Positions 1 to 35,206 of a DNA stretch of 64,000 nucleotides are shown piece by piece. Origin of the DNA: Chiridota heheva (taxonomy: Eukaryota > Echinodermata > Holothuroidea > Apodida > Chiridotidae); the NCBI GenBank assembly GCA_020152595.1, contig JAIGNY010001857.1, forward strand, positions 548,501-612,500, given 5' to 3'. The position numbers and the translations under genes are program-made. The notes under the pieces are model-generated. The model did not search any database. It was not told the origin of the DNA and saw only the letters and a list, made by a program, of their open reading frames with translations. Each line of letters starts with the position of its first letter. Within the stretch, counting starts at the first letter, position 1.

Positions 1-119
1 ATTGTAAACACCCTAATTCCGCCCATGCATTGCTGAACCAAACTTTATACTCCATACATAGGCCCAGCACAGCATATCTCCATACAAAAGGGTAACAGCA
101 GGTAGGGTCAATTACTTAC

Positions 120-436
120 TTTGCGCTATCACTTCCTGACCTCCTTGAGCGCCTTTTTCTCCTCCTTGCACAGCAAAAATGGCCCTGATACATCCAGGCT
201 TCTTCTCAATGTGTGAGAATTCACTTTCGTTGTCACTGTCAAAGCTTTCTTCAGCTTTGCGTCTATTTTGGGAGCTTCCTTTAATCGAAACGATTCGTTG
301 CCCATTTTTTGACTGAAGCGGAGCCTGCCTCAAGAGTTAAGGCTGAATTGGCTACTTTCATCGACCGTGGTCCAGATGAGGAATCGGCATCATGGCTTCC
401 CACACAGCTCTTAGGATTTTTGAAGCGGAGTTTTTT
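120..436 (-). pseudogene. Exon B, unit 1 (frame-disrupted copy)
   Basis: Same exon as the intact copy at 12,661-12,982, with acceptor TTTTTATAG before 436 and donor GTAAGT after 120. It is 317 bp instead of 322. The five missing bases are each in a mononucleotide run: the A run at the acceptor, the A run in the SASKNPKS codons, the A run before the internal ATG, a GGG run, and the A run in the codons after AIF. The conceptual frame from the preceding exon meets a stop soon after the acceptor. Either the copy is decayed or the runs are miscounted in the assembly. Splice sites remain intact. Confidence 0.6.
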
Positions 437-800
437 CTATAAAAACAAGAAAATAGAGTGGGGAAAACCAAAAATTGTTAGTTAGGCAGTGAAATTCTCA
501 AGAGCTTTAACTTTCTAAAGAGACTTTAATTTGCAAAATTGTTTTGCATCCATAAATAAGGAAAAATTGGATAATGGAAAATTTGCAAAGTAAGGAATGG
601 GGTAAGGTGGGGTGGGATAGGGGATACGAAATAATACAATTATGCCTAATGTTGCATCCAATATCTCCCCCATGGTTTAATTGTTGTTGTTTACATCAAC
701 GTCAGCTTCAAAGGGTGATGTCAGCGAGAAGAAGAGTGGGGGTATTACCTCCTCCTCTCTCATGCCCCAATATAATACGCATAAGCTGTTGTATTCTTAC

Positions 801-1314
801 CATGTCCGTCTGTTTTGCTGACATTTGGTGGCGTTGGGCTGTAGCATTGACCAAAGCTAAGAACCAAAGAGTTGAGCGCACAGGAGTTGTAGATATCTCA
901 CGTCGTATCGATCGCTTCTGGGATAGGCCTGATTGAAGAAGTATCTTATCATTTACCACCTCATCCTCTTTGGAGCAGTGAAGGACCGTTTCTAATCCAT
1001 GTTCGGGGAAAAGACGTATCAAGATGCAAACCATGGTGTTTGTCTTTGTCCAGGAAAGCTCATCGCGCCTTTCCTTGTTGGATGGTCCAACAGAGGCGTC
1101 AATATCTTGGCTTTCCGCACCGCTCTTAGGATTTTCTGAAGCAGAGCTTCGATCAAGGGTTGAGGTTGAACTGGCAGCTGTCATCAGCCATGGTTCAAAA
1201 GAGACATCGACATAATCGCTTTCCACGCCGTTCTTAGATTTTGCTGATGTGGAGCTTGGCTCAAGACTTGAGGTTGAACCGGCAAATTTCACCGACTTTA
1301 TTGAACGGGATTTC
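801..1314 (-). pseudogene. Exon A, unit 1 (514 bp, shifted frame)
   Basis: Homologous to the intact exons A3-A5. Acceptor TTTTGTCACAG precedes 1314 and donor GTAAGA follows 801. Relative to 518 bp it lacks one G (near 1049), two G (near 1004) and one T (near 816). The first two losses sum to three, so a stretch of about 24 codons is read in another frame and the frame then recovers. The third loss moves the donor out of phase with exon B1. No stop interrupts the exon body. All losses are in homopolymers, so this may be an assembly artefact rather than a broken exon. Confidence 0.6.
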
Positions 1315-2212
1315 CTGTGACAAAATATAAAACAATTATAAATATAATTCACTCAAACGCAGGTTTCTAGCCGTTAGATATATTGAGCAGTTTAGTAAAA
1401 CGGAAATCGGTTGGGTCTGTTAGTACAATAAGATTTGAATGCATGGGCGTAGGAAGGGTTTTTTTCTGGAAAGAGGGATGGGGGTGGTTGTGAAAGTTTT
1501 TAACTTCATATCTGGTTACTCTTCCCACCCCCACCGTTCTTTCCACACAAAAAATATAAAAACATAATGTTTTGCTTTCATATCTTTTTAAAGGAACTCA
1601 TGGCAAAATGATAACACTTCGTAGCTAAAATGCTTAATTGGGATCATAAGATATATTGACAGGTACAATACTCAGATATACGCAGGCGCGTTATATACTA
1701 TTTTAACTAGTGGTGTGAATTATAAGATTAACCAACAACCTTAAATAAACATAATCCATATGGAAAAAGAAAATAAGTATTTCACCTTGGCGGAATGCAC
1801 GCTTTTCCACTTTTTTGTAAGTTAAACGAATTGTGAATCTGAAGGAATTTTTGGAAGAATGGCAACAATTTCGGAGAATGGCTGGTAATTTCCGATTAGC
1901 ACCAATCTTTAGTGGGATGGGGTGGGGTGGGGTAAAATACTTTCTTCCCCCCTTCCCCCACCCTCCACACACACACACACACACACTTTTGTGAATGTGG
2001 CGGCTAAGGTTACCAGCGGGGCCCGTATCCTGTCACTATGGTTGAATGCTAGTACGCGTCCACATACCCAAATAAAGCAGATCTCCAAATCTACCGATTT
2101 GAGTATGTGCCGATGTCCATTGAAAAAGTGGCGCCACACACTATTCAAAGGTCAATGGGATTTAACACATCTCAAAAAAAAAGTTCCCACATTTTTCTGG
2201 GACACGTTATTA

Positions 2213-2893
2213 TTACTCAGACCCTTAGGCTCAGACGACCAACGCCCCTAGCCCCAGATACCCTAGGCCCAGACCCCAGAATTTGTACAATACGCGCATT
2301 CAGAACGTGTGAGATTTCCCCAGTTAGGATTTTCTTTAAAATAACAATTCAACAAAATTTCACATGAACTTAAGTTAGCTCCACCCATTTCTGACTATCC
2401 TCATACCCCATATACTGCCTAGTCCCAGATCCCCTAGACTTTATTTTTAAACTAGACTTGATTTTGTATTATTACTCAGGCCTATAGGCTAAGACAACCA
2501 TTACCCCTAGCCCCAGTTCTCCTATGCCCAGACCCCAGAAATCGTACAATTTTTGCATTCAGAACGTGTGAGATTTCCCTAATTATGATTTTCTTTTAAA
2601 TAACAATCCAAATAAAACTTTCACTTGAACTAAAAATTCCACCCGATTCTGACTATCCTCAAGCCCCATACTGTCATAGTCCCAGATCCACCAGAACCAG
2701 ATTATAGAGACCCAGGCCCTTAGGCTCAGGCCCCATATGCCCAGACTCTCTAGGCCAAGACCCCGGGGTCAAGGTCCCCTGCCCAGATTCTCTCTCCCCA
2801 TCCCTAGGCCCAGGTACCCTCGGCCCAAATCACCTCAACCCAGATCTGATCTCCTATGTTCAGGCTCCTAGTAGGCCCAGACTCATAACTCGG
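2213..2893. repeat. Intronic sub-repeats inside each array unit (AGGCCCAGACCCC-rich)
   Basis: The long intron between exon B and the next exon A contains about three diverged subunits of roughly 250-350 bp. Each has a C-rich part built on AGGCCCAGA and CCCTAGGC words followed by an AT-rich part (TGTGAGATTTCCC, then GATTTTCTTTAAAATAACAAT). Starts are near 2,270, 2,535 and 2,885. The same block recurs near 5,350-6,020, 8,510-9,180 and 11,615-12,295 and, diverged, at 37,141-37,670. The array is thus a higher-order repeat with older repeats nested inside its intron. Confidence 0.8.
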
Positions 2894-3257
2894 TGTGTGT
2901 GATCATTCCCAAGCACGATTTTCTTATCTTCTTAGAATAGCGATCAAACAATCTGTGCATATAAACTTGAACGGTGACTTGAACGATTACTTGAGACACA
3001 ATGCGGGTATCTTTAGAAATAATCTTATACGTGCCTACACTAGGCCCTATGTGTATTGGACCATGAATTGGCTTAACAGTTACTTCCCAATATTGTTTGT
3101 GGTGTCCAGGCTTATTCAAGTTTTTATTTTTGTAGCCATTGTAAACACCCCTAATTCCGCCCATGCATTGCTGAACCAAACTTTATACTCCATACATAGG
3201 CCCAGCACAGCATATCTCCATACAAAAGGGTAACAGCAGGTAGGGTCAATTACTTAC

Positions 3258-3578
3258 TTTGCGCTATCACTTCCTGACCTCCTTGAGCGCCTTTTTCTCC
3301 TCCTTGCACAGCAAAAATGGCCCTGATACATCCAGGCTTCTTCTCAATGTGTGAGAATTCACTTTCGTTGTCACTGTCAAAGCTTTCTTCAGCTTTGCGT
3401 CTATTTTGGGAGCTTCCCTTTAATCGAAACGATTCGTTGCCCATTTTTTTGACTGAAGCGGAGCCTGCCTCAAGAGTTAAGGCTGAATTGGCTACTTTCA
3501 TCGACCGTGGTCCAGATGAGGAATCGGCATCATGGCTTCCCCACACCGCTCTTAGGATTTTTGAAGCGGAGTTTTTTT
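3258..3578 (-). pseudogene. Exon B, unit 2 (321 bp, frame lost near the 3' end)
   Basis: Acceptor and donor are as in the other copies. The exon is open from the acceptor almost to the donor. One lost A and one gained G near the 5' end restore each other, so a short stretch of residues is replaced. Later the A run before the Cys-Cys-polybasic segment has five A instead of six, turning the conserved AIFCCARRRKRR segment into an unrelated glycine-rich frame and moving the donor phase by one. The change sits in a homopolymer, so base-calling error is possible. Confidence 0.6.
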
Positions 3579-3944
3579 CTATAAAAACAAGAAAATAGAG
3601 TGGGGAAAACCAAAAATTGTTAGTTAGGCGGTGAAATTCTCAAGAGCTTTAACTTTCTAAAGAGACTTTAATTTGCAAAATTGTTTTGCATCCATAAATA
3701 AGGAAAAATTGGATAATGGAAAATTTGCAAAGTAAGGAATGGGGTAAGGTGGGGTGGGATAGGGGATACGAAATAATACAATTATGCCTAATGTTGCATC
3801 CAATATCTCCCCCATGGTTTAATTGTTGTTGTTTACATCAACGTCAGCTTCAAAGGGTGATGTCAGCGAGAAGAAGAAGAGGGGGGTATTACCTCCTCCT
3901 CTCTCATGCCCCAATATAATACGCATAAGCTGTTGTATTCTTAC

Positions 3945-4460
3945 CATGTCCGTCTGTTTTTGCTGACATTTGGTGGCGTTGGGCTGTAGCATTGACCAAA
4001 GCTAAGAACCAAAGAGTTGAGCGCACAGGAGTTGTAGATATCTCACGTCGTATCGATCGCTTCTGGGATAGGCCTGATTGAAGAAGTATCTTATCATTTA
4101 CCACCTCATCCTCTTTGGAGCAGTGAAGGACCGTTTCTAATCCATGTTCGGGGAAAAGACGTATCAAGATGCAAACCATGGTGTTTGTCTTTGTCCAGGG
4201 AAAGCTCATCGCGCCTTTCCTTGTTGGATGGTCCAACAGAGGCGTCAATATCTTGGCTTTCCGCACCGCTCTTAGGATTTTCTGAAGCAGAGCTTCGATC
4301 AAGGGTTGAGGTTGAACTGGCAGCTGTCATCAGCCATGGTTCAAAAGAGACATCGACATAATCGCTTTCCACGCCGTTCTTAGATTTTGCTGATGTGGAG
4401 CTTGGCTCAAGACTTGAGGTTGAACCGGCAAATTTCACCGACTTTATTGAACGGGATTTC
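3945..4460 (-). pseudogene. Exon A, unit 2 (516 bp, premature stop)
   Basis: Same splice signals as the intact copies. A G run near 4,150-4,155 has four G instead of six. This two-base loss shifts the frame after the residues DTSFP and gives a stop within about 16 codons. Everything upstream of the lesion matches the intact exons: the Ser-rich repeats, the acidic stretch and the K/R-rich stretch. If the G run is under-called, the exon would be 518 bp and fully open. Confidence 0.6.
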
Positions 4461-6392
4461 CTGTGACAAAAATATAAAACAATTATAAATATAATTCACT
4501 CAAACGCAGGTTTCTAGCCGTTAGATATATTGAGCAGTTTAGTAAAACGGAAATCGGTTGGGTCTGTTAGTACAATATGATTTGAATGCATGGGCGTAGG
4601 AAGGGTTTTTCTGGAAAGAGGGATGGGGGTGGTTGTGAAAGTTTTAACTTCATATCTGGTTACTCTTCCCACCCCCACCGTTCTTTCCACAAAAAAAATA
4701 TAAAAACATAATGTTTTGCTTTCATATCTTTTAAAGGAACTCATGGCAAAATGATAACACTTCGTAGCTAAAATGCTTAATTGGGATCATAAGATATATT
4801 GACAGGTACAATACTCAGATATACGCAGGCGCGTTATATACTATTTTAACTAGTGGTGTGAATTATAAGATTAACCAACAACCTTAAATAAACATAATCC
4901 ATATGGAAAAAGAAAATAAGTATTTCACCTTGGCGGAATGCACGCTTTCCCACTTTTTGTAAGTTAAACGAATTGTGAATCTGAAGGAATTTTTGGAAGA
5001 ATGGCAACAATTTCGGAGAATGGCTGGTAATTTCCGATTAGCACCAATCTTTAGTGGGATGGGGGGGTGGGGGTAAAATACTTTCTTCCCCTCCCCACCC
5101 TCCCACACACACACACACACACTTTTGTGAATGTGGCGGCTAAGGTTACCAGCGGGGCCCGCGTATCCTGTCACTATGGTTGAATGCTAGTACGCGTCCA
5201 CATACCCAAATAAAGCAGATCTCCAAATCTACCGATTTGAGTATGTGCCGATGTCCATTGAAAAAGTGGCGCCACACACTATTCAAAGGTCAATGGGATT
5301 TAACACATCTCAAAAAAAAGTTCCCACATTTTTCTGGGACACGTTATTATTACTCAGACCCTTAGGCTCAGACGACCAACGCCCCTAGCCCCAGATACCC
5401 TAGGCCCAGACCCCAGAATTTGTACAATACGCGCATTCAGAACGTGTGAGATTTCCCCAGTTATGATTTTCTTTAAAATAACAATTCAACAAAATGTTCA
5501 CATGAACTTAAGTTAGCTCCACCCATTTCTGACTATCCTCAGACCCCATATACTACCTAGTCCCAGATCCCCTAGACTTTATTTCTAAACTAGACTTGAT
5601 TTTTGTATTATTACTCAGGCCTATAGGCTAAGACAACCATTACCCCTAGCCCCAGTTCTCCTATGCCCAGACCCCAGAAATCGTACAATTTGCATTCAGA
5701 ACGTGTGAGATTTCCCTAATTATGATTTTCTTTTAAATAACAATCCAAATAAAACTTTCACTTGAACTAAAATTCCACCCGATTCTGACTATCCTCAAGC
5801 CCCATACTGTCATAGTCCCAGATCCACACAGAACCAGATTATAGAGACCCAGGCCCTTAGGCTCAGGCCCCATATGCCCAGACTCTCTAGGCCAAGACCC
5901 CGGGGTCAAGGTCCCCGCCCAGATTCCTCTCCCCATCCCTAGGCCCAGGTACCCTCGGCCCAAATCACCTCAACCCAGATCTGATCTCCTATGTTCAGGC
6001 TCCTAGTAGGCCCAGACTCATAACTCGGTGTGTGTGATCATTCCCAAGCACGATTTTCTTATCTTCTTAGAATAGCGATCAAACAATCTGTGCATATAAA
6101 CTTGAACGGTGACTTGAACGATTACTTGAGACACAATGCGGGTATCTTTAGAAATAATCTTATACGTGCCTACACTAGGCCCTATGTGTATTGGACCATG
6201 AATTGGCTTAACAGTTACTTCCCAATATTGTTTGTGGTGTCCAGGCTTATTCAAGTTTTTATTTTTGTAGCCATTGTAAACACCCCTAATTCCGCCCATG
6301 CATTGCTGAACCAAACTTTATACTCCATACATAGGCCCAGCACAGCATATCTCCATACAAAAGGGTAACAGCAGGTAGGGTCAATTACTTAC

Positions 6393-6712
6393 TTTGCGCT
6401 ATCACTTCCTGACCTCCTTGAGCGCCTTTTTCTCCTCCTTGCACAGCAAAAAATGGCCCTGATACATCCAGGCTTCTTCTCAATGTGTGAGAATTCACTT
6501 TCGTTGTCACTGTCAAAGCTTTCTTCAGCTTTGCGTCTATTTTGGGAGCTTCCCTTTAATCGAAACGATTCGTTGCCCATTTTTTTGACTGAAGCGGAGC
6601 CTGCCTCAAGAGTTAAGGCTGAATTGGCTACTTTCATCGACCGTGGTCCAGATGAGGAATCGGCATCATGGCTTCCACACCGCTCTTAGGATTTTTGAAG
6701 CGGAGTTTTTTT
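6393..6712 (-). pseudogene. Exon B, unit 3 (320 bp, 5' frame lesion)
   Basis: This copy keeps an intact second half, from the MKVANSALTLEAGS segment to the polybasic CCARRRKRRSRRS segment and the correct donor phase. The first ~20 codons are disturbed: one A is missing from the AAAAAA run and one G from the GGG run, which together produce a stop (TGA) in the frame entering from exon A3. Both lesions lie in mononucleotide runs. Acceptor TTTTTATAG and donor GTAAGT are intact. Confidence 0.6.
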
Positions 6713-7086
6713 CTATAAAAACAAGAAAATAGAGTGGGGAAAACCAAAAATTGTTAGTTAGGCGGTGAAATTCTCAAGAGCTTTAACTTTCTAAAGAGAC
6801 TTTAATTTGCAAAATTGTTTTGCATCCATAAATAAGGAAAAATTGGATAATGGAAAATTTGCAAAGTAAGGAATGGGGTAAGGTGGGGTGGGATAGGGGA
6901 TACGAAATAATACAATTATGCCTAATGTTGCATCCAATATCTCCCCCATGGTTTAATTGTTCTTGTTTACATCAACGTCAGCTTCAAAGGGTGATGTCAG
7001 CGAGAAGAAGAGTGGGGGGGGGGGGGGGTATTACCTCCTCCTCTCTCATGCCCCAATATAATACGCATAAGCTGTTGTATTCTTAC

Positions 7087-7604
7087 CATGTCCGTCTGTT
7101 TTTGCTGACATTTGGTGGCGTTGGGCTGTAGCATTGACCAAAGCTAAGAACCAAAGAGTTGAGCGCACAGGAGTTGTAGATATCTCACGTCGTATCGATC
7201 GCTTCTGGGATAGGCCTGATTGAAGAAGTATCTTATCATTTACCACCTCATCCTCTTTGGAGCAGTGAAGGACCGTTTCTAATCCATGTTCGGGGGGAAA
7301 AGACGTATCAAGATGCAAACCATGGTGTTTGTCTTTGTCCAGGGAAAGCTCATCGCGCCTTTCCTTGTTGGATGGTCCAACAGAGGCGTCAATATCTTGG
7401 CTTTCCGCACCGCTCTTAGGATTTTCTGAAGCAGAGCTTCGATCAAGGGTTGAGGTTGAACTGGCAGCTGTCATCAGCCATGGTTCAAAAGAGACATCGA
7501 CATAATCGCTTTCCACGCCGTTCTTAGATTTTGCTGATGTGGAGCTTGGCTCAAGACTTGAGGTTGAACCGGCAAATTTCACCGACTTTATTGAACGGGA
7601 TTTC
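7087..7604 (-). CDS. Exon A, unit 3 (intact, 518 bp) of the array gene
   Basis: Internal coding exon on the minus strand. The acceptor is a T-rich tract ending GTCACAG and the donor is CATG|GTAAGA. It carries one base completing a codon from the previous exon, 172 full codons, and one base of the next codon. The product is rich in Ser and charged residues and probably disordered. Two related ~32-residue blocks (around LEPSSTSAKSKNGVES and LDRSSASENPKSGAES) are followed by a charged stretch (ERRDELSLDKDKHH) and a short hydrophobic patch (STLWFLALVNATA). No known domain is recognised and no function can be assigned. Differs from A5 by about seven substitutions, roughly five of them amino-acid changing. 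Confidence 0.65.
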
Positions 7605-9551
7605 CTGTGACAAAAATATAAAACAATTATAAATATAATTCACTCAAACGCAGGTTTCTAGCCGTTAGATATATTGAGCAGTTTAGTAAAACGGAAATCG
7701 GTTGGGTCTGTTAGTACAATAAGATTTGAATGCATGGGCGTAGGAAGGGTTTTTTTCTGGAAAGAGGGATGGGGGTGGTTGTGAAAGTTTTTAACTTCAT
7801 ATCTGGTTACTCTTCCCACCCCCACCGTTCTTTCCACACACAAAAAATATAAAAACATAATGTTTTGCTTTCATATCTTTTTAAAGGAACTCATGGCAAA
7901 ATGATAACACTTCGTAGCTAAAATGCTTAATTGGGATCATAAGATATATTGACAGGTACAATACTCAGATATACGCAGGCGCGTTATATACTATTTTAAC
8001 TAGTGGTGTGAATTATAAGATTAACCAACAACCTTAAATAAACATAATCCATATGGAAAAAGAAAATAAGTATTTCACCTTGGCGGAATGCACGCTTTTC
8101 CACTTTTTTGTAAGTTAAACGAATTGTGAATCTGAAGGAATTTTTGGAAGAATGGCAACAATTTCGGAGAATGGCTGGTAATTTCCGATTAGCACCAATC
8201 TTTAGTGGGATGGGGTGGGGTGGGGGTAAAATACTTTCTTCCCCCCTCCCCCCACCCTCCACACACACACACACACACACTTTTGTGAATGTGGCGGCTA
8301 AGGTTACCAGCGGGGCCCGCGTATCCTGTCACTATGGTTGAATGCTAGTACGCGTCCACATACCCAAATAAAGCAGATCTCCAAATCTACCGATTTGAGT
8401 ATGTGCCGATGTCCATTGAAAAAGTGGCGCCACACACTATTCAAAGGTCAATGGGATTTAACACATCTCAAAAAAAAAGTTCCCACATTTTTCTGGGACA
8501 CGTTATTATTACTCAGACCCTTAGGCTCAGACGACCAACGCCCCTAGCCCCAGATACCCTAGGCCCAGACCCCAGAATTTGTACAATACGCGCATTCAGA
8601 ACGTGTGAGATTTCCCCAGTTAGGATTTTCTTTAAAATAACAATTCAACAAAATTTTCACATGAACTTAAGTTAGCTCCACCCATTTCTGACTATCCTCA
8701 GACCCCATATACTGCCTAGTCCCAGATCCCCTAGACTTTATTTTTAAACTAGACTTGATTTTTGTATTATTACTCAGGCCTATAGGCTAAGACAACCATT
8801 ACCCCTAGCCCCAGTTCTCCTATGCCCAGACCCCAGAAATCGTACAATTTGCGCATTCAGAACGTGTGAGATTTCCCTAATTATGATTTTCTTTTAAATA
8901 ACAATCCAAATAAAACTTTCACTTGAACTAAAATTCCACCCGATTCTGACTATCCTCAAGCCCCATACTGTCATAGTCCCAGATCCACCAGAACCAGATT
9001 ATAGAGACCCAGGCCCTTAGGCTCAGGCCCCATATGCCCAGACTCTCTAGGCCAAGACCCCGGGGTCAAGGTCCCCGCCCAGATCCCTCTCCCCATCCCT
9101 AGGCCCAGGTACCCTCGGCCCAAATCACCTCAACCCAGATCTGATCTCCTATGTTCAGGCTCCTAGTAGGCCCAGACTCATAACTCGGTGTGTGTGATCA
9201 TTCCCAAGCACGATTTTCTTTCTTCTTAGAATAGCGATCAAACAATCTGTGCATATAAACTTGAACGGTGACTTGAACGATTACTTGAGACACAATGCGG
9301 GTATCTTTAGAAATAATCTTATACGTGCCTACACTAGGCCCTATGTGTATTGGACCATGAATTGGCTTAACAGTTACTTCCCAATATTGTTTGTGGTGTC
9401 CAGGCTTATTCAAGTTTTTATTTTTGTAGCCATTGTAAACACCCCTAATTCCGCCCATGCATTGCTGAACCAAACTTTATACTCCATACATAGGCCCAGC
9501 ACAGCATATCTCCATACAAAAGGGTAACAGCAGGTAGGGTCAATTACTTAC

Positions 9552-9870
9552 TTTGCGCTATCACTTCCTGACCTCCTTGAGCGCCTTTTTCTCCTCCATG
9601 CACAGCAAAAATGGCCCTGATACATCCAGGCTTCTTCTCAATGTGTGAGAATTCACTTTCGTTGTCACTGTCAAAGCTTTCTTCAGCTTTGCGTCTATTT
9701 TGGGAGCTTCCTTTAATCGAAACGATTCGTTGCCCATTTTTTGACTGAAGCGGAGCCTGCCTCAAGAGTTAAGGCTGAATTGGCTACTTTCATCGACCGT
9801 GGTCCAGATGAGGAATCGGCATCATGGCTTCCCACACAGCTCTTAGGATTTTTTGAAGCGGAGTTTTTTT
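9552..9870 (-). pseudogene. Exon B, unit 4 (319 bp, three single-base losses)
   Basis: The 5' third is intact and reads in frame from exon A4 (EKNSASKNPKSCVGSHDAD). Then one A is missing from the run before the internal ATG, one G from a GGG run, and one A from the run before the Cys-Cys segment. The frame entering from A4 stops shortly after the first loss. The three losses sum to three bases, so the donor is back in the expected phase. Splice signals are unchanged. All lesions are in homopolymers. Confidence 0.6.
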
Positions 9871-10232
9871 CTATAAAAACAAGAAAATAGAGTGGGGAAA
9901 ACCAAAAATTGTTAGTTAGGCGGTGAAATTCTCAAGAGCTTTAACTTTCTAAAGAGACTTTAATTTGCAAAATTGTTTTGCATCCATAAATAAGGAAAAA
10001 TTGGATAATGGAAAATTTGCAAAGTAAGGAATGGGGTAAGGTGGGGTGGGATAGGGGATACGAAATAATACAATTATGCCTAATGTTGCATCCAATATCT
10101 CCCCCATGGTTTAATTGTTCTTGTTTACATCAACGTCAGCTTCAAAGGGTGATGTCAGCGAGAAGAAGAGGGGGTGTTACCTCCTCCTCTCTCATGCCCC
10201 AATATAATACGCATAAGCTGTTGTATTCTTAC

Positions 10233-10750
10233 CATGTCCGTCTGTTTTTGCTAACATTTGGTGGCGTTGGGCTGTAGCATTGACCAAAGCTAAGAACCAA
10301 AGAGTTGATCGCACCGGAGTTGGAGATATCTCACGTCGCATCGATCGCTTCTGGGATAGGCCTGATTGAAGAAGTATCTTATCATTTACCACCTCATCCT
10401 CTTTGGAGCAGCGAAGGACCGTTTCTAATCCATGTTCGGGGGGAAAGGACGTATCAAGATGCAAACCATGATGTTTGTCTTTGTCCAGGGAAAGCTCATC
10501 GCGTCTTTTCTTGTTGGATGGTCCAACAGAGGCGTCATTATCTTGGCTTTCCGCACCGCTCTTAGGATTTTCTGAAGCAGAGCTTCGATCAAGGGTTGAG
10601 GTTGAACTGGCAGCTGTCATCAGCCATGGTTCAAAAGAGACATCGACATAATCGCTTTCCACGCCGTTCTTAGATTTTGCTGATGTGGAGCTTGGCTCAA
10701 GACTTGAGGTTGAACCGGCAAATTTCACCGACTTTATTGAACGGGATTTC
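10233..10750 (-). CDS. Exon A, unit 4 (intact, 518 bp) of the array gene
   Basis: Full-length open copy of exon A with the same acceptor, donor and phases as A3 and A5. It shares most of its changes relative to A3 with A5 (for example KKRRDEL instead of KERRDEL, SMRREISPTPV instead of SIRREISTTPV), so units 4 and 5 are closest relatives in this exon. Private changes include QDNDAS for QDIDAS and QMLAK for QMSAK. The intron to exon B4 is 362 bp and ends in a good polypyrimidine tract. Function unknown; it contributes 172 full codons to the 280-residue module. Confidence 0.65.
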
Positions 10751-12660
10751 CTGTGACAAAAATATAAAACAATTATAAATATAATTCACTCAAACGCAGG
10801 TTTCTAGCCGTTAGATATATTGAGCAGTTTAGTAAAACGGAAATCGGTTGGGTCTGTTAGTACAATATGATTTGAATGCATGGGCGTAGGAAGGGTTTTT
10901 TTCTGGAAAGAGGGATGGGGGTGGTTGTGAAAGTTTTAAACTTCATATCTGGTTACTCTTCCCACCCCCACCGTTCTTTCCAAAAAAAAAAAATATATAA
11001 AAACATAATGTTTTGCTTTCATATCTTTTTAAAGGAACTCATGGCAAAATGATAACACTTCGTAGCTAAAATGCTTAATTGGGATCATAAGATATATTGA
11101 CAGGTACAATACTCAGATATACGCAGGCGCGTTATATACTATTTTAACTAGTGGTGTGAATTATAAGATTAACCAACAACCTTAAATAAACATAATCCAT
11201 ATGGAAAAAGAAAATAAGTATTTCACCTTGGCGGAATGCACGCTTTCCCACTTTTTGTAAGTTTTTTGAATCTGAAGGAATTTTTGGAAGAATGGAACGG
11301 AGAATGGCTGGTACGATTAGCACCAATCTTTGTGGGATGGGGTGGGGTGGGGTAAAATACTTTCTTCCCCCTCCCCACCCTCACACACACACACACACAC
11401 ACACACACTTTTTGTGAATGTGGCGGCTAATTACCAGCGGGGCCGCGTATCCTGTCAATGGTTGAATGCTAGGCGTCCACATACCCACAGCTCTCCAAAT
11501 CTCGATTTGAAGATGTCCATTGAAAAAGTGGCGCCACACACTATTCAAAGGTCAATGGGATTTAACACATCTCAAAAAAAAAAAGTTCCCACATTTTTCT
11601 GGGACACGTTATTATTACTCAGACCCTTAGGCTCAGACGACCAACGCCCTAGCCCCAGATACCCTAGGCCCAGACCCCAGAATTTGTACAATACGCGCAT
11701 TCAGAACGTGTGAGATTTCCCCAGTTATGATTTTCTTTAAAATAACAATTCAACAAAATGTTCACATGAACTTAAGTTAGCTCCACCCATTTCTGACTAT
11801 CCTCAGACCCCATATACTACCTAGTCCCAGATCCCCTAGACTTTATTTCTAAACTAGACTTGATTTTTGTATTATTACTCAGGCCTATAGGCTAAGACAA
11901 CCATTACCCCTAGCCCCAGTTCTCCTATGCCCAGACCCCAGAAATCGTACAATTTGCGCATTCAGAACGTGTGAGATTTCCCTAATTATGATTTTCTTTT
12001 AAATAACAATCCAAATAAAACTTTCACTTGAACTAAAATTCCACCCGATTCTGACTATCCTCAAGCCCCATACTGTCATAGTCCCAGATCCACCAGAACC
12101 AGATTATAGAGACCCAGGCCCTTAGGCTCAGGCCCCATATGCCCAGACTCTCTAGGCCAAGACCCCGGGGTCAAGGTCCCCCGCCCAGATCCCTCTCCCC
12201 CATCCCTAGGCCCAGGTACCCTCGGCCCAAATCACCTCAACCCAGATCTGATCTCCTATGTTCAGGCTCCCTAGTAGGCCCAGACTCATAACTCGGTGTG
12301 TGTGATCATTCCCAAGCACGATTTTCTTATCTTCTTAGAATAGCGATCAAACAATCTGTGCATATAAACTTGAACGGTGACTTGAACGATTACTTGAGAC
12401 ACAATGCGGGTATCTTTAGAAATAATCTTATACGTGCCTACACTAGGCCCTATGTGTATTGGACCATGAATTGGCTTAACAGTTACTTCCCAATATTGTT
12501 TGTGGTGTCCAGGCTTATTCAAGTTTTTATTTTTGTAGCCATTGTAAACACCCCTAATTCCGCCCATGCATTGCTGAACCAAACTTTATACTCCATACAT
12601 AGGCCCAGCACAGCATATCTCCATACAAAAGGGTAACAGCAGGTAGGGTCAATTACTTAC

Positions 12661-12982
12661 TTTGCGCTATCACTTCCTGACCTCCTTGAGCGCCTTTTTC
12701 TCCTCCTTGCACAGCAAAAAATGGCCCTGATACATCCAGGCTTCTTCTCAATGTGTGAGAATTCACTTTCGTTGTCACTGTCAAAGCTTTCTTCAGCTTT
12801 GCGTCTATTTTGGGAGCTTCCCTTTAATCGAAACGATTCGTTGCCCATTTTTTTGACTGAAGCGGAGCCTGCCTCAAGAGTTAAGGCTGAATTGGCTACT
12901 TTCATCGACCGTGGTCCAGATGAGGAATCGGCATCATGGCTTCCCACACAGCTCTTAGGATTTTTTGAAGCGGAGTTTTTTT
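12661..12982 (-). CDS. Exon B, unit 5 (intact, 322 bp) of the array gene
   Basis: The only full-length, fully open exon B. The acceptor TTTTTATAG leaves two bases that complete the codon begun by exon A5 (G|AA, Glu). 106 full codons follow, then AA before GTAAGT. Order in the product: EKNSASKNPKSCVGS (resembling the Ser-rich blocks of exon A), a second related block ending SASVKKMGNES, an acidic/Ser stretch (EESFDSDNESEFSHIE), then KKPG followed by the compact motif CIRAIFCCARRRKRRSRRS. Adjacent cysteines beside a hydrophobic patch and a polybasic run could suit lipid-modified membrane attachment or nuclear import; neither is shown. The final AA is completed by G at the start of the next exon A, giving Lys. 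Confidence 0.65.
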
Positions 12983-13352
12983 CTATAAAAACAAGAAAAT
13001 AGAGTGGGGAAAACCAAAAATTGTTAGTTAGGCGGTGAAATTCTCAAGAGCTTTAACTTTCTAAAGAGACTTTAATTTGCAAAATTGTTTTGCATCCATA
13101 AATAAGGAAAAATTGGATAATGGAAAATTTGCAAAGTAAGGAATGGGGTAAGGTGGGGTGGGATAGGGGATACGAAATAATACAATTATGCCTAATGTTG
13201 CATCCAATATCTCCCCCATAGTTTAATTGTTGTTGTTTACATCAACGTCAGCTTCAAAGGGTGATGTCAGCGAGAAGAAGAGTGGGAAGGGGGGGGGTGT
13301 TACCTCCTCTCTCATGCCCCAATATAATACGCATAAGCTGTTGTATTCTTAC

Positions 13353-13870
13353 CATGTCCGTCTGTTTTTGCTGACATTTGGTGGCGTTGGGCTGTAGCAT
13401 TGACCAAAGCTAAGAACCAAAGAGTTGAGCGCACAGGAGTTGGAGATATCTCACGTCGCATCGATCGCTTTTGGGATAGGCCTGATTGAAGAAGTATCTT
13501 ATCATTTACCACCTCATCCTCTTTGAAGCAGCGAAGGACCGTTTCTAATCCATGTTCGGGGGGAAAGGACGTATCAAGATGCAAACCATGGTGTTTGTCT
13601 TTGTCCAGGGAAAGCTCATCGCGCCTTTTCTTGTTGGATGGTCCAACAGAGGCGTCAATATCTTGGCTTTCCGCACCGCTCTTAGGATTTTCTGAAGCAG
13701 AGCTTCGATCAAGGGTTGAGGTTGAACTGGCAGCTGTCATCAGCCATGGTTCAAAAGAGACATCGACATAATCGCTTTCCACGCCGTTCTTAGATTTTGC
13801 TGATGTGGAGCTTGGCTCAAGACTTGAGGTTGAACCGGCAAATTTCACCGACTTTATTGAACGGGATTTC
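13353..13870 (-). CDS. Exon A, unit 5 (intact, 518 bp), first array exon in transcription order
   Basis: Open throughout, with acceptor TTTTGTCACAG before 13,870 and donor GTAAGA after 13,353. Because transcription runs leftward, this is the first array exon reached. It begins with a single G that would complete the AA left by the exon at 38,253-38,440, giving AAG (Lys). The intron to B5 is 370 bp. Private changes include RCFKEDE for RCSKEDE. No homologous exon A is seen to the right of 13,870, so if the exon at 38.3 kb belongs to the same gene the joining intron is about 24.4 kb, unless unrecognised exons lie between. Confidence 0.65.
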
Positions 13871-14499
13871 CTGTGACAAAAATATAAAACAATTATAAAT
13901 ATAATTCACTCAAACGCAGGTTTCTAGCCGTTAGATATATTGAGCAGTTTAGTAAAACGGAAATCGGTTAGGTCTGTTAGTACAATAAGATTTGAAGGCA
14001 TGGGCGTAGGAAGGGTTTTTTTCTGGAAAGAGGGATGGGGGCGGTTGTGAAAGTTTTAAACTTCATATGTGGTTACTCTTCCCACCCCCACCGTTCTTTC
14101 CACAAAAAAAAAATATAAAAACATAATGTTTTGCTTTCATATCTTTTTAAAGGAACTCATGGCAAAATGATAACACTTCGTAGCTAAAATGCTTAATTGG
14201 GATCATAAGATATATTGACAGGTACAATACTCAGATATACGCAGGCGCCGTATATACTATTTTAACTAGTGGTGTGAATTATAAGATTAACCAACAACCT
14301 TAAATAAACATAATTCCATATGGAAAAAAAAATAAGTATTTCACCTTGGCGGAATGCACGCTTTCCCACTTTTTTAGAGGTTGAACGAATTGGTGAATCT
14401 AAAGGAAATTTTGGAAGAATGGCAATATTTCTGGAGAATGGCTGGTGATTTTCCAATTAGCAGCAATCTTTATTGGAAAATGGGAATGGGGTGGGTGGG

Positions 14500-14575
14500 G
14501 GTGAAATATACTTAATCGCCCCCATCTCCCATCTCCCCCCCCCCCCTCCCCTCCCCCCCCGCACACACACACTTT
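14500..14575. repeat. C-rich and (CA)n tract at the array edge
   Basis: A G-rich stretch, then a run of C and CCCTCCCC words, ends in (CA)n. The equivalent site in the other units is a G-rich plus (CA)n microsatellite near 1,915-1,986, 5,060-5,122, 8,210-8,280 and 11,336-11,408. Tract length differs in every unit, so it is the fastest-changing part of the unit. Confidence 0.85.
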
Positions 14576-14984
14576 TATGACTGGCGGCTAACGCTACCAG
14601 CTTGATTTACCAGCTAGGCCCCGTGTCCTGCAAATATGGTTGAATGCTAGTACGCGTCCACACCCAAATAGAGCAGATCTCCAAATCTACCGATTTGGAT
14701 ATGTGCCGATGTCCATTACAAAAGTGGCGCCACACACTATTCAAAAGTCAATGGGATTAACCGCGTTTAAAAAAAAAAGTTCCACATTTTTCTGGGAGAC
14801 TTTATTTTCGATATCAAAATCAACTCGCTTATCAATAAAAAATTGAACACACTTACAGTTTGTTTCCAGTTGCAGTTGTAAAATTTGTAAAGAAAAAACA
14901 ACAATAGATGGTAAAAATTAAAAGGAAAGGGGAAAAAAGCAACAATTTTTTGTCAGTTTTTTTACTTCAAAATCGTGAAACGCT

Positions 14985-15390
14985 CACAACAATGATGTAA
15001 TGCCGGCGCATGGGTATGTGCGTGCACATATAACATGTATTACGTCGCGCAATTATCATGCGCAATATTTTATTTATTTTCGTGACGCGTACGTACGCGC
15101 ATAGCGCCTATGCCGTTATATGCGCTCGAATTACAACACTTAAGCAGTACAATCCAATTCCTGCGCTTTATATACGCCGGTGAAAAACGCCTGTGAAAGT
15201 CCTCGCCCGTGTTAATCTTTCTCTAACTTGTGTACACTCGTGAAAATTCAGTTCTACGCAGGAATTTTACTGTAAAAGACCACGAAGCCTAAACTTCCAG
15301 AGAATAACGTTTTTTGTGCATTTCTATTTGATTCGGAAACATCTCCTTAATACCGAGGACTAAATTCTTCCTGATTAGGCCTACAAGGTA
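14985..15390 (+). promoter_or_regulatory. CpG-rich candidate promoter and first exon beside the array
   Basis: CpG is locally frequent (GGCGCATG, TACGTCGCGC, GACGCGTACGTACGCGC) in otherwise CpG-poor DNA from about 15,003 to 15,190. A TATA-like TTTATATA lies at 15,167-15,174, and a consensus donor CAAG|GTAAGG with GT at 15,388-15,389. A transcript starting about 30 bp after the TATA box would have a ~190-nt untranslated first exon. No long open frame is present. Strand and use are inference. Confidence 0.3.
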
Positions 15391-16243
15391 AGGAGAGAAG
15401 TTGGTAGCCATCGGAAGTAAAAGTTTGTTGTTTCGGTGATGTTGCATAATTGTAACAGCATTGTATTGAGGTGTAGGCTCACACGTTTCTGATACGTCTG
15501 ACGGAGATTGTGGGTTAGAATTATACGTTGCTGCTCGTTCCTAATGTGCCAGTGTATTTTAGCGTTAAAATTATAATCATGTCTAATTTTTCAATCGTAT
15601 TTTACTTATCTTTTGTAGTTTTTATTTTGCATATTTACATGTCTTATAGTTTCACACTATCTCTTTAACTTATTTGAGAAATAACATACGGTAGTTATTT
15701 TGTATTATCGCACGTCTTGTTTAAACCAGGGATCTATAACAGTATCCCTGGTTAAACGTTTTAGTTGTATATAATCGAATTTAGTACTTACTACTAGCAT
15801 AATGACGTCACTAGACTAAGTTTCATTCAATAATATTTACAAGAGCGGTCAAGTTAAAGGGGCACGAGAACGCAAAGTTTGGGCGTACCTTTAGGGAGAA
15901 CCCACCCACCCCCTCCCCCTCCCTCTCAAATATCAAATGCTTATATATCATGCAACGGTATCAAGGCTAGTTAATAAGAATATTCAAGTCACCTTAACCT
16001 TTGCCCTCATGTCGTCTGAGGGCTATGGAGGCATCAAGTTTATGGATCTGTTGTGGATAATATATATATGAAATTAAACAAAAGGGCGCCCCACATTCGG
16101 TCTAGTGCACTTTTGAGCAAAACCACCATATCTGCCTATTGTAAACATCCGCCCTTTCCCTAAAATAGTGCGCGACAAAGAACATGTGATACTTAAGTTA
16201 TATGTAAAGAGATATATTGTCAGCCTGAGACAATACAGGGAAT
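15391..16243. other. Unannotated AT-rich stretch
   Basis: No coding or RNA gene seen. It holds a strong hairpin at 15,719-15,757, a CRE octamer TGACGTCA near 15,804-15,811 and a C-rich patch near 15,900-15,930. Confidence 0.5.
15719..15757. repeat. Hairpin with 14-bp stem and 10-nt loop
   Basis: GTTTAAACCAGGGAT (15,719-15,733) is the reverse complement of ATCCCTGGTTAAAC (15,744-15,757), apart from one bulged A. No second copy was noticed in the window and no function is evident. Confidence 0.6.
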
Positions 16244-16415
16244 CCTGTTAGAGTTAAGTTACCCCAACCTGTTACGTAAGGCTACCCCAACCTGTTAGGG
16301 CTAGGCTATCCCAATCTGTTAGGGCTAGGCTACTCCAACCTGTTAGGGTTTAGTGAGATAAACATCTCACCCAGTATGCCCTACATGCTACACACTACTT
16401 GCAATACTGTGTGGG
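16244..16415 (+). repeat. 24-bp tandem repeat plus conserved hairpin (dispersed family)
   Basis: About 4.5 units of CCTGTTAGGGCTAGGCTACCCCAA at 16,244-16,352 run directly into a perfect hairpin GTGAGAT-AAAC-ATCTCAC (16,353-16,370) and then CAGTATGCCCTACATGC. The 24-bp motif returns at 18,776-18,900 and 25,218-25,297. The hairpin with its downstream sequence returns almost unchanged at 39,257-39,325. This looks like a dispersed non-autonomous element whose parts are found separately. Confidence 0.7.
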
Positions 16416-18240
16416 ACAACCTAACACAAACTTCCATCAGGATTTTTATTTTAAACTATGATACGATCAACACTTTTACTAATTGTGACTGCAAAAACAT
16501 TAATAATAGCTACCAATTTGATGACAATAATATTGTAAACTTACTAAATACATTTTTATCTCCTTATATAAAACAAAAAATAATGAAATTGAATGATTTT
16601 CGGAGCTAATCGTTTACCTTGACAACTTTGTCCGTCCGACTCATGACGGGCGTACAAAAGTAACGCACAGCTTTAGTTAGATTACGCTGGCGAGTATTAG
16701 TTTTAAGATATTCGCACTTAGATCTTTCTCGAGAGACAACAAGTCACCAGTGCAAAAAAAAAATTACATCACATATTACGATGGAGTATCATGTTTGATA
16801 TTTAATAAAATATCATTTAAGCGAAATAAAATATATGTTGCAAAACGGCCAAAAAATATTTGGGGAAAGAATTTAGGTCTATACACTTAAAAGAAAGTCT
16901 AGCTTAGTCATTGTTTTGAATGAATATCATGTACATGTTGTGATGCTCAATACATAAGTGTAGGAACGGAAAGGGCAGGGGGAACGTGCCCCACACAAAA
17001 ATGAATAAAGTGCCCCTTTTAAAAAGGTTATTGAATTAGTGTAAAACGGAACTAATTATTCTCAATATTGAAAGCGATGATGAAAGAGTCAAGTTCGGGG
17101 TTCTTTTTGTACCAGAATGTTATAGATTTGGGATATTTTGTGATGTTTTCTAAAAAGTACCATCTAATATCTCTCGGATGAGGGTACTTTTGATAGGGGG
17201 TCACCAGCGGTTTTGGTCTTTTTTTTTTTTTAGGGCGATGTGAAGAGGTGTTGTACATAAGGGCATTTTAATAATTTCATTGACACCGTCAGTGTCCCCC
17301 TCCCCTAACTCACTATAATAATTGTCCTTCCCCCTCCCCATTCAATATTGGCTATTGTTACTGTTTTCCCTGGAAATTTACGTTAAGAAAGGAATAAATT
17401 TAACATTGAAATGGAGAATAGGGGGTTACAATTCCCGGAAAAATGTTAAAGAAACATAACACTATAACATATGAAGTTCTCAAAAAGCTGAAGTGTTCCA
17501 GCTGTTTTGTCCAAGATTGTAGGCCTAGGCCTACTCCCAATAAAAAATATATCCCTTAATATTTCCTTTAACTTATGATGATCTGCAAGAATTTAAACTG
17601 CAGTCACAAATGCTAAATTAACCCTGTTAACGGTAGGTAAGGAAGTTTTGGCATTATTGGAACCCCCCACCCAAATCTTATCCTCATGTACCCCCCCCCA
17701 CCCCTGAATTCCAAATCCTATCATCCTCCCCGAATCCCAAATCAGTCCCCTCCTCACCCAAATCACGAACCCCAAATCTTAAACTACCCTAAATACCAAA
17801 ACCATATGTCACTGACCCCCATTCACCCCCACCCCGTGGGGTGGGGACTAATTATTAAGTATAGGGGCTAATTATTAAATATAGCCTAATTTTAGACCCC
17901 AGATAGTCTAGGCCATTTTACTTCCATTCAACAACTTGGAAGTTCTAAGCACTTGTATGGCACCTGATGAAATCACTCCACCTATTCAGTGCTGTCATGC
18001 AAAATAAATAACACACTATCCATTTAATAGTACCTCAGACTCCATAACAAACGCTATTTAGAATTAGCTATCAGTCATAGTTGTATAGTAAGCTTGCTGC
18101 CTATGGATACAACTAACTGGCCAACGCTAGTGTTACTGCTATTAACGTGCGTGGGACCCGCGAAACAAACATTTAGATATTAACAAAGTAAAAAGTTTCA
18201 GGATATCCCGCGGAAAATTTACAAAAACTTTAATCAGGTG
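16416..18240. other. Gene-free stretch
   Basis: Only short unsupported frames. GTGCCCC-type words near 16,985-17,025 resemble those at 53,040-53,280 and may be old transposon sequence. A C-rich tract of CCCAAATC and CCCCACCC words spans 17,660-17,840. No splice-supported exon was recognised. Confidence 0.5.
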
Positions 18241-18337
18241 ATGTACACGACGGTGTGCGCAGAATCATAGTGGTGTTTGCATTATAATTTGCGACTTCAG
18301 TATGACATCACTCTGTGTAAGCTGCCGTACCAAGAAA

Positions 18338-18392
18338 TGACGTCAAAAAGCCATAAGGAGAAATGACGTCAAATTGACGTCATAAAAAGACA
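18338..18392 (+). promoter_or_regulatory. Cluster of three perfect CRE octamers near a TATA-like box
   Basis: TGACGTCA occurs at 18,338-18,345, 18,364-18,371 and 18,375-18,382, followed at once by CATAAAAAG. The full palindromic CRE is bound by CREB/ATF-type bZIP factors in animals. Three copies in 45 bp are far beyond chance in AT-rich DNA. A candidate core promoter could fire to the right at about 18,420-18,450, but no downstream coding exon is recognised. Confidence 0.5.
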
Positions 18393-18737
18393 CCCGGTTG
18401 ACGATTCTGTTGATTGCGGTACAGACACTTTAGCGCTTTGCACAGTGAACCACCACGGAGAAGGATCAGTGAAATAATTTCTTATTTTAACCAATTTACG
18501 ACAGCCATTGAGGTTTAAAACGTAGGTGCCCAATAAGATTAAGTCTTTTTTAGTATGTTCATGATATTTTTATATAGTAGGACGTATTTTAAACTTATAA
18601 TTACAAAAGGCAACAGCCACAAATTCGTTGCGGAAAGGTTTATATAAAGCTGTGCGTCGTCAATATTATTATGTTGAGTCAATGTAATCGTTTTCCACGT
18701 TGTAATTTGTACAATGACTTCTGACTGTACAGCAGAT

Positions 18738-18900
18738 GCATATGGCTACAGTATACAGTCATATGTTACCTGACTAGTTAGGGTTAGGCTATTCCAGGGT
18801 TAGGCTACTCCAACCTTGTTAACTTGTAGGGTTAAATTACCCCAACCTGTTTTGATTAGGATACTCCAAACTGTAGGTTAGGCTAACCCAACCAGCCCAG
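18738..18900 (+). repeat. Dispersed-repeat copy with diverged 24-bp units
   Basis: GATGCATATGGCTACAGTAT and the following bases (18,735-18,778) match 39,322-39,365. They lead into several GGGTTAGGCTACTCCAAC units related to 16,244-16,352, here interrupted and diverged. Confidence 0.65.
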
Positions 18901-20909
18901 CCTGTTAAGGCTTTGTCAGATAATTAATACGCGATAGCCACTACATGGTAGAGCTGTAACCGTTTAGCGTGTACATGCTACACGCTCGCAAATCCTTGTA
19001 AACGTTTACTAAATACTTCATCGTGACTAATCATTTTTCATAGTCAGTCTTGCCATTGAAAATCAATAAGATCATTTATAATTCAATTCACACACACATT
19101 CGGCTGACAAAATTAAAATCAATGACTTTTAACAAACTGTGAACCCGATTAACATAACCTTTTTTAAATGTGAGAATCACAAATGCGCAGTAATCACCTA
19201 TGAATGGGGATATTATGCACTTTGATTTTGCCGAAATCCGAGGCTGACTTGTAAAATGCACCACGAATGTGCAGTAAACAGTGAAACTAACAATAGGCCT
19301 AGGCCATAATTAATAAGGCTTTAAATCCCACCCAATCAAGGCCCGTTTTACAAAATGTTAAATCGACCAACAAACACAATCAAAATATTTCAATCGTGAC
19401 AAGCAGTACATTTACATGTAAATATTACCTAATGAGTCAAAAAAAAATTGCAAGAAAGAAAAAATACTGCAAAATAAACAAACATAAAAAGGTTTTGACA
19501 GAACTAAAATTCTAGGTGCTTCGCAAAGATGGCGGCTGCTATTTTTTCGAAAGGACTAATATTTCAGAACTTCTAAAGTGGTGGCGTAGTTTTGAAATGT
19601 TTTACAGCAAGGTATCATAAGCCTAGTATGCAAGGTTTGTACAGTGGAACATTGAAAGCCATAGCGAGTGCGGCAAAAAATGTTACGCGATGTTGAGTTT
19701 AAATGACATTGAAAGGAAGTTATCTGTTCTTTCTAAACTGAATTTCCATGCGAATTTTCCATTAAAATGATGATTTATACTGTAGAAGTAAACTTTTTAC
19801 AATTTGGAAAGCAAAACTCGAGCGTCTATTTGGGCAATGGAATCAATACTTTTGCCGTGTTAGTTGCGCGATTTTTACTTCGCATTGTTAATTTAGAGCA
19901 ATTTTGGTGTATTTTGAAAAATTACGGTACTAAACGCGTGTAAACGAAACACGCTCACTTTTTTTGGCTTTTACAGGTTTACTAAAATCCATAAACGTTC
20001 ACAGCTCTACTACTGTACATGGCTGCTATACACAGTCAGAAAACACTATATACCCTAAAACGTTAAAACTGCTGCATTGGCTTATCATAGAAGTGTAGAT
20101 GAATTCGACTGCACGCTAAAAAAAACTAGGCCTTTTCGCGACGATCACAAGTCAACTTTTGACAATACTTTTTATCGCCATGGATTACTTTTACGTGATA
20201 CAAAATAAATAGATATATGCAATAATACTATATTGAGACGTCATTTACGTTTTGTGCGTGAGTTTAATCAAGAAAACTGAAAAGTTGCGTTTTGTGTAAG
20301 AGCCTTCGCTACTGACTTAGTTTCAAACAGCGCCTTGGATGGATGTATTTAATTAGTTGAAAAGTTGTCGAACAATAGATCTTTAGAGGGATGGTGAAAT
20401 CAACGTGCGTATAGCATTAAATCGAACACTGCACGCATTAATTGACAAATTTTCAAAATAGCAGTTGCCAGAGCACTCGGGTGATACGCGCACTAATTGT
20501 TTATGCGTTTCCTAAAGTGGGGTATTTGCGAAGTAATCGGAATGTCATTTCTTCCGTAATTTAGATACTTTTTACATACAAAATGTTCATCATTTCATTT
20601 GTAACTTAGTTTGAAAGATACTTTAAACTTTTAAGACGCTAATGAAATCAAAATTATAGCTTGTAAATACTTTTGTCAGTTTTGAGAAAAGTTTTCATTT
20701 CATGATTATGTTATTTGTTGTTGTCTGAGTGGTTTTCAATGTTACGAGTGTATTATGCATTGTCACACTCAGTATGCAAGTATTGCTTTGCAAGTAGTGC
20801 CCTACTGAGTGAGGTGTTAATCTCACTAGTTCAGGCCAGGCTACCCTAACCAGTTCAGGAGATGTCTTATTTTAAAGAACCTGTAAAATACCTAAGGCTA
20901 ATTCTGGCA
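18901..20909. other. Gene-free stretch with one YY1-like site
   Basis: AAGATGGCGGC at 19,526-19,536 is an exact YY1-type motif, often seen just after animal transcription starts, but no linked exon is visible. A fragment of the dispersed repeat (CACTCAGTATGCAAG, then GCCAGGCTACCCTAACC) lies at 20,766-20,860. Otherwise nothing recognised. Confidence 0.45.
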
Positions 20910-21330
20910 TGACAGACGGGACAAATTTACACTACTTACTAAAAAAAAATTTTAAGGCTTGCCAAAAACAATCTGTAAGATGTAACCTTCTTAGTTATGT
21001 AGACAGTCATTGTAAACAATGTGCAATTTATATTTAGAAATAATCCATGAAACTAGAGGATCAATGTCAGTGTAGTGACAAAGTAAAATCAGCGTGACAG
21101 ACGGGACGCAAACTACACTCACTTTTTTGAAAACGACTCTCCTTGGAAAAAGCTTTCTGTTCCCACATGAAATTAAATGTTTTCTCTCTGTCAAGTTAAT
21201 CAATTTTATACAAATAATCAGTAAACATATGACTTAGTTATTCAAAATATGTAACTGGAAATACATGTACCAGACTCATTAATGTTGTGACAGACGGGGC
21301 ATTTTTGCACACTTAAAAATGAAATTTTTG
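20910..21330 (+). repeat. ~190-bp diverged tandem repeat led by TGACAGACGGGAC
   Basis: The 13-mer TGACAGACGGGAC occurs at 20,910-20,922 and 21,095-21,107 and, with one change, at 21,288-21,300 (spacing 185 and 193 bp). Each copy is followed by a related ACACTNNCT and A/T-rich stretch, so these are diverged tandem units. Further motif copies are at 22,506, 22,533 and (partial) 23,182 and 23,341. Confidence 0.6.
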
Positions 21331-22505: not shown

Positions 22506-22550
22506 TGACAGACGGAACAAAAGGGAAAATTGTGACAGACGGGATGTGAT

Positions 22551-23181
22551 TTTTTTTCTTAGGCCAGATAAGCAATGGCAAATTTATTGACCAATCAGGT
22601 GTGCAGATAGAAAGTTGAAAACATGGTTATTCATGTTTATTTAGTGTACGAATATGTATATATTAATATTTCAGTAGAGATGAGTGATACATTAATTGTC
22701 GCATATGCATACACAACGCGTACGAGATCTTTGACCACGTTTATTCTTAGAGAGCATTTGAGATTGGCGAAAGTTTTATTTATCTGTTTATTTTCTAGCA
22801 AATAGTTACCACTAGGTACCATTTATTATTATATGAAGATTTCTCTGCGATGACACACTTCCACACATACACTAGACTGCTAACCTCGAGTTAGTTCTTC
22901 AAAAACTGTGCATTACCTGATTACGAGAGAGCAAGTACCTTGTGTGGTAGGTCCTTGGAGAGAACAAAACTACTTCCCAGCCATTACGCATTCTGAACTG
23001 CAAAGTTTCTCGTGTGTACATCCTACGCATATGTGAGGAACTTCACTTCGGTGCATACAGTTTTAGACAAGCGTTAAAACTTAAAGAATATTCATAACAC
23101 CATCATAGCAACAAGGTGAAGTAATACTAGAATCTGATTGGTCAATAAATTTGCCATCGCTTATCTAGCCTAGGAAAAAAA
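22551..23181. mobile_element. 631-bp element bounded by 48-bp inverted repeats
   Basis: The left arm (22,551-22,598, TTTTTTTCTTAGGCCAGATA onward) and the right arm (23,134-23,181) are reverse complements with about three mismatches in 48 bases. Short frames inside (60-61 residues) resemble no known transposase. The flanks are copies of the (T)GACAGACGGGA motif on both sides (22,533-22,545 and 23,182-23,193). This fits a MITE or foldback element set in the motif field. No clean target duplication could be assigned. Confidence 0.6.
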
Positions 23182-23613: not shown

Positions 23614-23636
23614 TTTAAAGGCATATTACTATCAGT

Positions 23637-28080: not shown

Positions 28081-35204
<7,124 letters not shown>

Positions 35205-35206
35205 GC

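Follow-up and report, generated by a model that had tools for sequence, protein, structure and literature searches.

The KIV-2 repeat of LPA, the gene of human apolipoprotein(a), is expressed, its product being a folded kringle, and the NBPF genes are primate genes with known transcripts. Both are repeats of an exon pair. According to the part of PMC4378929 that describes it, KIV-2 is a 5.5-kilobase (kb) unit with exons of 160 and 182 base pairs (bp), a long intron and a short one, and 1 to >40 tandem copies in one gene. PMC5556342 describes the NBPF DUF1220 (Olduvai) domain as an exon doublet, consisting of a short and a long exon; a term search of PMC3429928 returned no mention of the doublet. 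NBPF repeats are arranged in tandem. Here we describe a tandem repeat of two exons, A and B, in the holothuroid Chiridota heheva (assembly GCA_020152595.1, contig JAIGNY010001857.1, here C1795). The window, i.e., the whole stretch of DNA that was analysed, is C1795:548501-612500, 64,000 nucleotides (nt) in length.

In its arrangement, this repeat is of the same kind as LPA KIV-2 and the NBPF exon doublets. As far as the cited descriptions extend, the array shares with KIV-2 a tandem two-exon unit in one gene with a long and a short intron, and with NBPF an exon-doublet unit in tandem, the latter likeness being one of arrangement and not of compared sequences. In contrast to KIV-2, the array is mostly broken as assembled, and the pair consists of a former last exon and a chimeric first exon. 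The unusual part is its probable origin from a terminal exon by means of a self-made acceptor. Judging from the sequence, the array probably arose by a young tandem duplication within a two-exon gene family of this genome.

Array layout and exon phases

The A/B repeat lies on the minus strand, with five units within the window and three further A-B pairs (A6-B6, A7-B7 and A8-B8) on the same contig beyond the window edge, past position 1. The features of the window are:

38253..38440, minus strand: exon B0, with which the coding part of the array gene begins (ATG at 38440); an acidic stretch precedes CLRAIFCCARRRKRR; donor AAA^GTAAGT
13871..38252, minus strand: long intron from B0 to A1, piecewise alignable with the intron of the single-copy relative C69
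13353..13870, minus strand: exon A1, 518 nt, open; two repeats of 36 amino acids (aa) and the C-terminal part
12983..13352, minus strand: A-to-B interval of unit 1, 370 nt (362-374 across the five units), with a stop, ATTAAA and the new acceptor in this order
12661..12982, minus strand: exon B1, 322 nt, open; chimeric, with an A-repeat fragment joined to B0 sequence
10233..10750, minus strand: exon A2, 518 nt, open
9552..9870, minus strand: exon B2, 319 nt; three 1-nt homopolymer indels break the frame
7087..7604, minus strand: exon A3, 518 nt, open
6393..6712, minus strand: exon B3, 320 nt, broken frame
3945..4460, minus strand: exon A4, 516 nt, broken frame
3258..3578, minus strand: exon B4, 321 nt, broken frame
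801..1314, minus strand: exon A5, 514 nt, shifted frame
120..436, minus strand: exon B5, 317 nt, broken frame

An earlier, sequence-only reading of this DNA had stated that four splice motifs are kept in all five units, and this is what we find. Exon A has the acceptor GTCACAG (at 13870, 10750, 7604, 4460 and 1314) and the donor ATG^GTAAGA, while exon B has the acceptor TTTTTATAG (at 12982, 9870, 6712, 3578 and 436) and the donor AAA^GTAAGT, each in five of five units. The acceptor-to-acceptor spacing between the window units is 3120, 3146, 3144 and 3146 bp, and the step from A5 to A6, which crosses the window edge, is 2558 bp. Units 1-4 differ pairwise by just 17-44 substitutions over ~3,100 aligned bases, so the repeat is not due to chance. 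Unit 5, aligned up to A6, differs from these by 117-128 substitutions over ~2,540 bases, and A6-B6 comes to about 91%. A8-B8 is located ~17 kb further along the contig than A7-B7, and no A exon was located after B8 in the sequence down to C1795:488501. As in LPA KIV-2, the same exon pair with its splice sites is present in each tandem unit of the window (five of five), while beyond the window A6 is without its acceptor AG.

The sequence-only reading further held that the phases interlock, A taking in one base and giving out one and B taking in two and giving out two, so that each unit of 518+322 = 840 nt adds 280 codons. This is exact in the unit 12661-13870 only. As assembled, A and B of units 1-5 sum to 840, 837, 838, 837 and 831 nt; four of these are multiples of three, and only the first unit is open throughout. 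In the frame proposed, exon A is intact in three and exon B in one of the five units, the other four units being broken by indels of 1-2 nt. As assembled, then, the units are not all open with whole codons, as would be expected of an expressed repeat of the LPA KIV-2 type.

If the units are read as one gene, its messenger RNA (mRNA) would be B0-(A-B)n, encoding one long protein with 280 residues per unit and a copy number that varies between individuals. We regard this as a tentative reading, on the doubtful side. The conserved splice motifs, the tandem amplification of the exon pair and the compatible phases of the intact unit argue for it, and B0-A1-B1-A2 can be read for 567 codons before a first stop is reached within B2. 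However, four of the five units are out of frame, the chain meets a lost acceptor at A6 and ends without a located A after B8, and B0-A1 and B1-A2 also form complete 248-codon frames, each with ATG and stop.

A two-exon family and the probable origin of exon B

Relatives were searched for in the 1.1-Gb assembly, and the locus counts are lower bounds. Six further loci, C69, C907, C3237, C3267, C1525 and C1540, carry homologous exons, with B preceding A; in contrast to the array, one B and one A were found at each of them. In addition, two B-like matches were found on C3274 and only an A-like one on C713. Unrelated separate genes and satellite DNA were both rejected as explanations, since the exons belong to a family present at other loci.

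In all four relatives that were read (C69, C907, C3237 and C3267), A is followed by a stop and a polyadenylation (poly(A)) signal, as it is in the array. The in-frame stop is found 9 codons beyond the GTRAGA of A in the C907 clade (C907, C3267 and C3237), 14 codons beyond it in C69 and 13 in A1 and A2. The poly(A) signal past A is AATAAA in the C907 clade. In C69 and in seven of the eight array A exons (A7 is without it) it is ATTAAA, located 118-138 nt beyond GTRAGA; in unit 1 the distance is 126 nt. As the A exon of the relatives runs past GTRAGA to an in-frame stop and then to a poly(A) signal, the ancestor would most simply have been a two-exon gene with the ATG in B and with A last. GTAAGA follows A also in C69, C3237 and C3267 (GTGAGA in C907), without any B exon found behind A. 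The GTAAGA of A was therefore rejected as proof of A-to-B splicing, the relatives sharing GTRAGA and reading on to the stop; further matches from the genome search extend beyond it as well.

From this family structure it can be proposed that each unit is a separate B-A gene, beginning at the ATG in B and ending after A. The B-A order at six other loci, the ATTAAA behind seven of eight array A exons and the complete B1-A2 frame are in line with such tandem genes. Still, the match to B0 extends just ~14 nt upstream of the ATG of B, which leaves the unit without the old promoter and 5' untranslated region, the distance from A to the next B is only that of the short interval (362-374 nt) in the five window units, and the B6-A7 frame has 67 codons only. 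We consider separate B-A genes unlikely.

Exon B of the array is a chimera. The match between B0 and B1 begins at nt 121 of B1, and the ATG is at nt 135. Before this point, the 3' flank of A is joined to ~1.2 copies of A's own 108-bp repeat, followed by B from ~14 nt before the ATG. Nucleotides 5-131 of the array exon B have 85% identity to the best repeat of C69, and 69-85% across the listed repeats. The ancestral region upstream of the ATG of B0 is absent from the array B exons. All eight of them, in four sequence versions, have an AG acceptor at the junction, while no AG is found at this position in C69 or in the sequence after B8. The acceptor phase is identical in B1-B4, B6 and B7, whereas B8 is 3 nt longer and B5 is one A short. 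In B1, the first 134 nt, derived from the repeat, are open in the frame common to A and B.

The intron of C69 aligns piecewise with the long intron at either end of the array, from B0 to A1 and, outside the window, from B7 to A8. Arrays of the 24-bp CCTGTTAGGGCTAGGCTACCCCAA type are present at 16244-16348 and 25223-25292 of the window and at about C1795:539592-539681; those at 25.2 kb and C1795:539.6 kb occupy matching places in the two long introns.

The chimeric exon B, the AG at the junction and the piecewise alignment of the C69 intron suggest the following series of events, the order of which is inferred. A unit of B, intron and A would have been duplicated, and a fragment of A would have come to lie at the junction. 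The junction would have created a chimeric B exon with a new AG acceptor and without the old upstream region. Subsequently, the intron would have been shortened and the resulting 3.1-kb unit multiplied through unequal crossing-over. Transcription would begin upstream of B0. Exon A could then serve as the last exon, giving a 248-aa protein, or be spliced via GTAAGA to the chimeric B that follows, in which case each intact unit would contribute 280 residues; in the transcript of such a chain the predicted A-to-B junction is GACATG^AAAAAAACTCC.

Both uses of exon A are possible. The loss of the old upstream region from the array B exons favours the chain, while the stop, the poly(A) signal and the pre-existing GTAAGA favour A as the last exon. 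What stands of the single-gene chain proposed in the sequence-only reading is thus the amplified exon pair, its compatible phases in the intact unit, the AG in all array B exons and the lost upstream region; the B-A order at six loci, the stop and poly(A) signal kept behind A, and a donor on A where no following B was found speak against it. On a tentative reading, the duplication junction may have made a terminal exon internal, in that a repeat fragment placed behind a T-rich 3' flank yielded an in-frame acceptor. Through one accident, a two-exon gene that was closed would then have become a chain that is open-ended and locked in phase, gains 280 codons per unit and diversifies faster than its introns.

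A separate expansion is seen in C69, where ~29 copies of the 108-bp (36-aa) repeat are found inside a single exon A (C69:1561623-1565028). As far as its exon can tell, this is a second route from the same gene to a longer repeat protein.

Selection and possible decay

Several observations weigh against a functional chain. Besides the broken window units and the missing acceptor AG of A6, A7 has deletions of ~108 and ~105 nt. Breaks are present in the relatives, too: exon A of C69 has 17 indels over 29 repeats, a few of which compensate one another; 13 of the indels are frame-breaking, and only two of these 13 are located in homopolymer runs of at least 3 nt. In C3237, a substitution has produced a stop and the acceptor AG is gone, A of C3267 carries an insertion of 1 nt, and B of C907 lacks 1 nt. 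As assembled, each of the four relatives that were read is thus broken, and it is probable that some members of the family are dead. In 21 comparisons involving A7, A8 or C69, the ratio of nonsynonymous to synonymous rates (dN/dS) of exon A is 0.79-1.73, and the array could be non-functional. There is no clear purifying selection on exon A in the clade of the window.

The amplified units may therefore have decayed, i.e., no longer function, with genuine frame breaks. This is a serious possibility, if short of even, and we give it this weight because all four relatives that were read are broken and because the frame of A does not stand out in the codon test on the C907 clade. The three readings (one chain, separate B-A genes, decay) overlap, and the weights given to them need not add up to a whole.

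The divergence of exons and flanks also bears on decay. In most pairs among the array and C69, exon divergence is equal to or above flank divergence, in line with decay. For A1-C69 the exon has 81/495 and the flank 78/708 differences (p 0.009), for B1-B6 23/188 and 13/279 (p 0.004), and for B1-C69 27/186 and 15/257 (p 0.003); for A1-A8 the two are equal. B0-B8 and B0-C69 reverse the direction, the latter with 14/186 in the exon vs 31/256 in the flank (p 0.15). In the C907 clade, on the other hand, A diverges less than its flanks (20/413 vs 99/662, p 8e-8; 38/412 vs 108/653, p 7e-4), which argues against decay there. The dN/dS of the A frame in this clade is 0.73, 0.43 and 0.42, but another frame gives 0.28, 0.60 and 0.64, so that by this test the A frame does not stand out. 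Among A1-A5, dN/dS is 0.18-0.77 where computable, on 7-11 changes, and for exon B (from the ATG) it ranges from 0.14 (B6-B8) to 1.29 (B1-C69) among the pairs printed. Among indels of at least 3 nt, multiples of three make up 5/10 in exons and 13/43 in flanks, which is too weak a contrast to rely on. From these sequences, the branch of the window may be relaxed, diversifying or dead.

Stop codons give a further argument against decay. Across eight overlapping comparisons with A1, no substitution stop was found in A, with 0.2-2.7 expected; the strongest case is C69 (0 vs 2.7 expected, P 0.05), the others expecting 0.2-1.8. In exon B from the ATG, one substitution stop is found in two of 12 comparisons, which matches expectation.

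Finally, the frame breaks of the window units need not be genuine. The exons of the five aligned units contain 15 substitution columns and nine indel blocks, and as all nine indel blocks are in homopolymers, it is plausible that these breaks are assembly errors. A break of the same kind is found in a conserved HSP70 exon (G000:C2902:695272-696914), which continues in another frame after a run of A, in what resembles a one-base loss in that run, the surrounding sequence being conserved. One of the three long HSP70 exons of the assembly is split in this way; the check comprised 48 matches, mostly short exons, with the sequence viewed for two of the three long exons, the C94 exon being open by the match table, and a long many-stop match on C2410 left out of the comparison. 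From the split HSP70 exon, residual consensus indel errors are likely in this assembly, and they would presumably be more serious where repeats are nearly identical and polishing becomes ambiguous.

Should the chain be expressed, the locus would clearly illustrate how a coding exon-pair repeat like LPA KIV-2 begins, with single-copy relatives in the same genome and with the breakpoint that created the acceptor and kept the frame directly readable. If it is not expressed, the array calls for caution, as matching phases and retained splice motifs do not prove a repeat protein when an array is young.

Predicted protein and other repeats

Exon B consists of the ATG, an acidic stretch and a cysteine/arginine-rich segment, and exon A of the 36-aa repeat region, a conserved C-terminal part, the stop and the poly(A) signal. 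The invariant positions over six aligned exon A sequences include LE..L.C...D......IL.QSGLS, and LQSGLSQKR is a motif of the predicted protein.

The sequence-only reading recognised no resemblance to any protein. Taking a score above the gathering cut-off as the criterion for membership of a Pfam family, the best Pfam match of the 248-aa B0-A1 protein is TAF1D with 14.5 bits against a cut-off of 27 (15.6 against 27 for the B0 frame), and neither A of C907 nor the end of A of C69 has a Pfam match with E up to 1. When exon A1 was compared with the PDB sequences, the best E was 0.32, and nothing passed the cut-off. A known domain was rejected on these searches. The predicted product is a repeat protein that would probably be disordered, each B exon contributing one cysteine/basic patch. 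We take the cysteine/arginine segment to resemble palmitoylated or nuclear basic tails, and by this analogy the patch is perhaps membrane-anchoring or nuclear.

The window contains two further tandem repeats. According to Tandem Repeats Finder (TRF), a 36-bp satellite at 61718-63049 has 36 copies with 0% indels. One of its strands is open for 443 codons and the other for 455, and its two Pfam matches are both below the cut-off; possibly it codes for a 12-aa repeat, but a satellite with a period that is a multiple of three is more likely. At 50342-51278, a 71-bp repeat has 13 copies with 96% matches.

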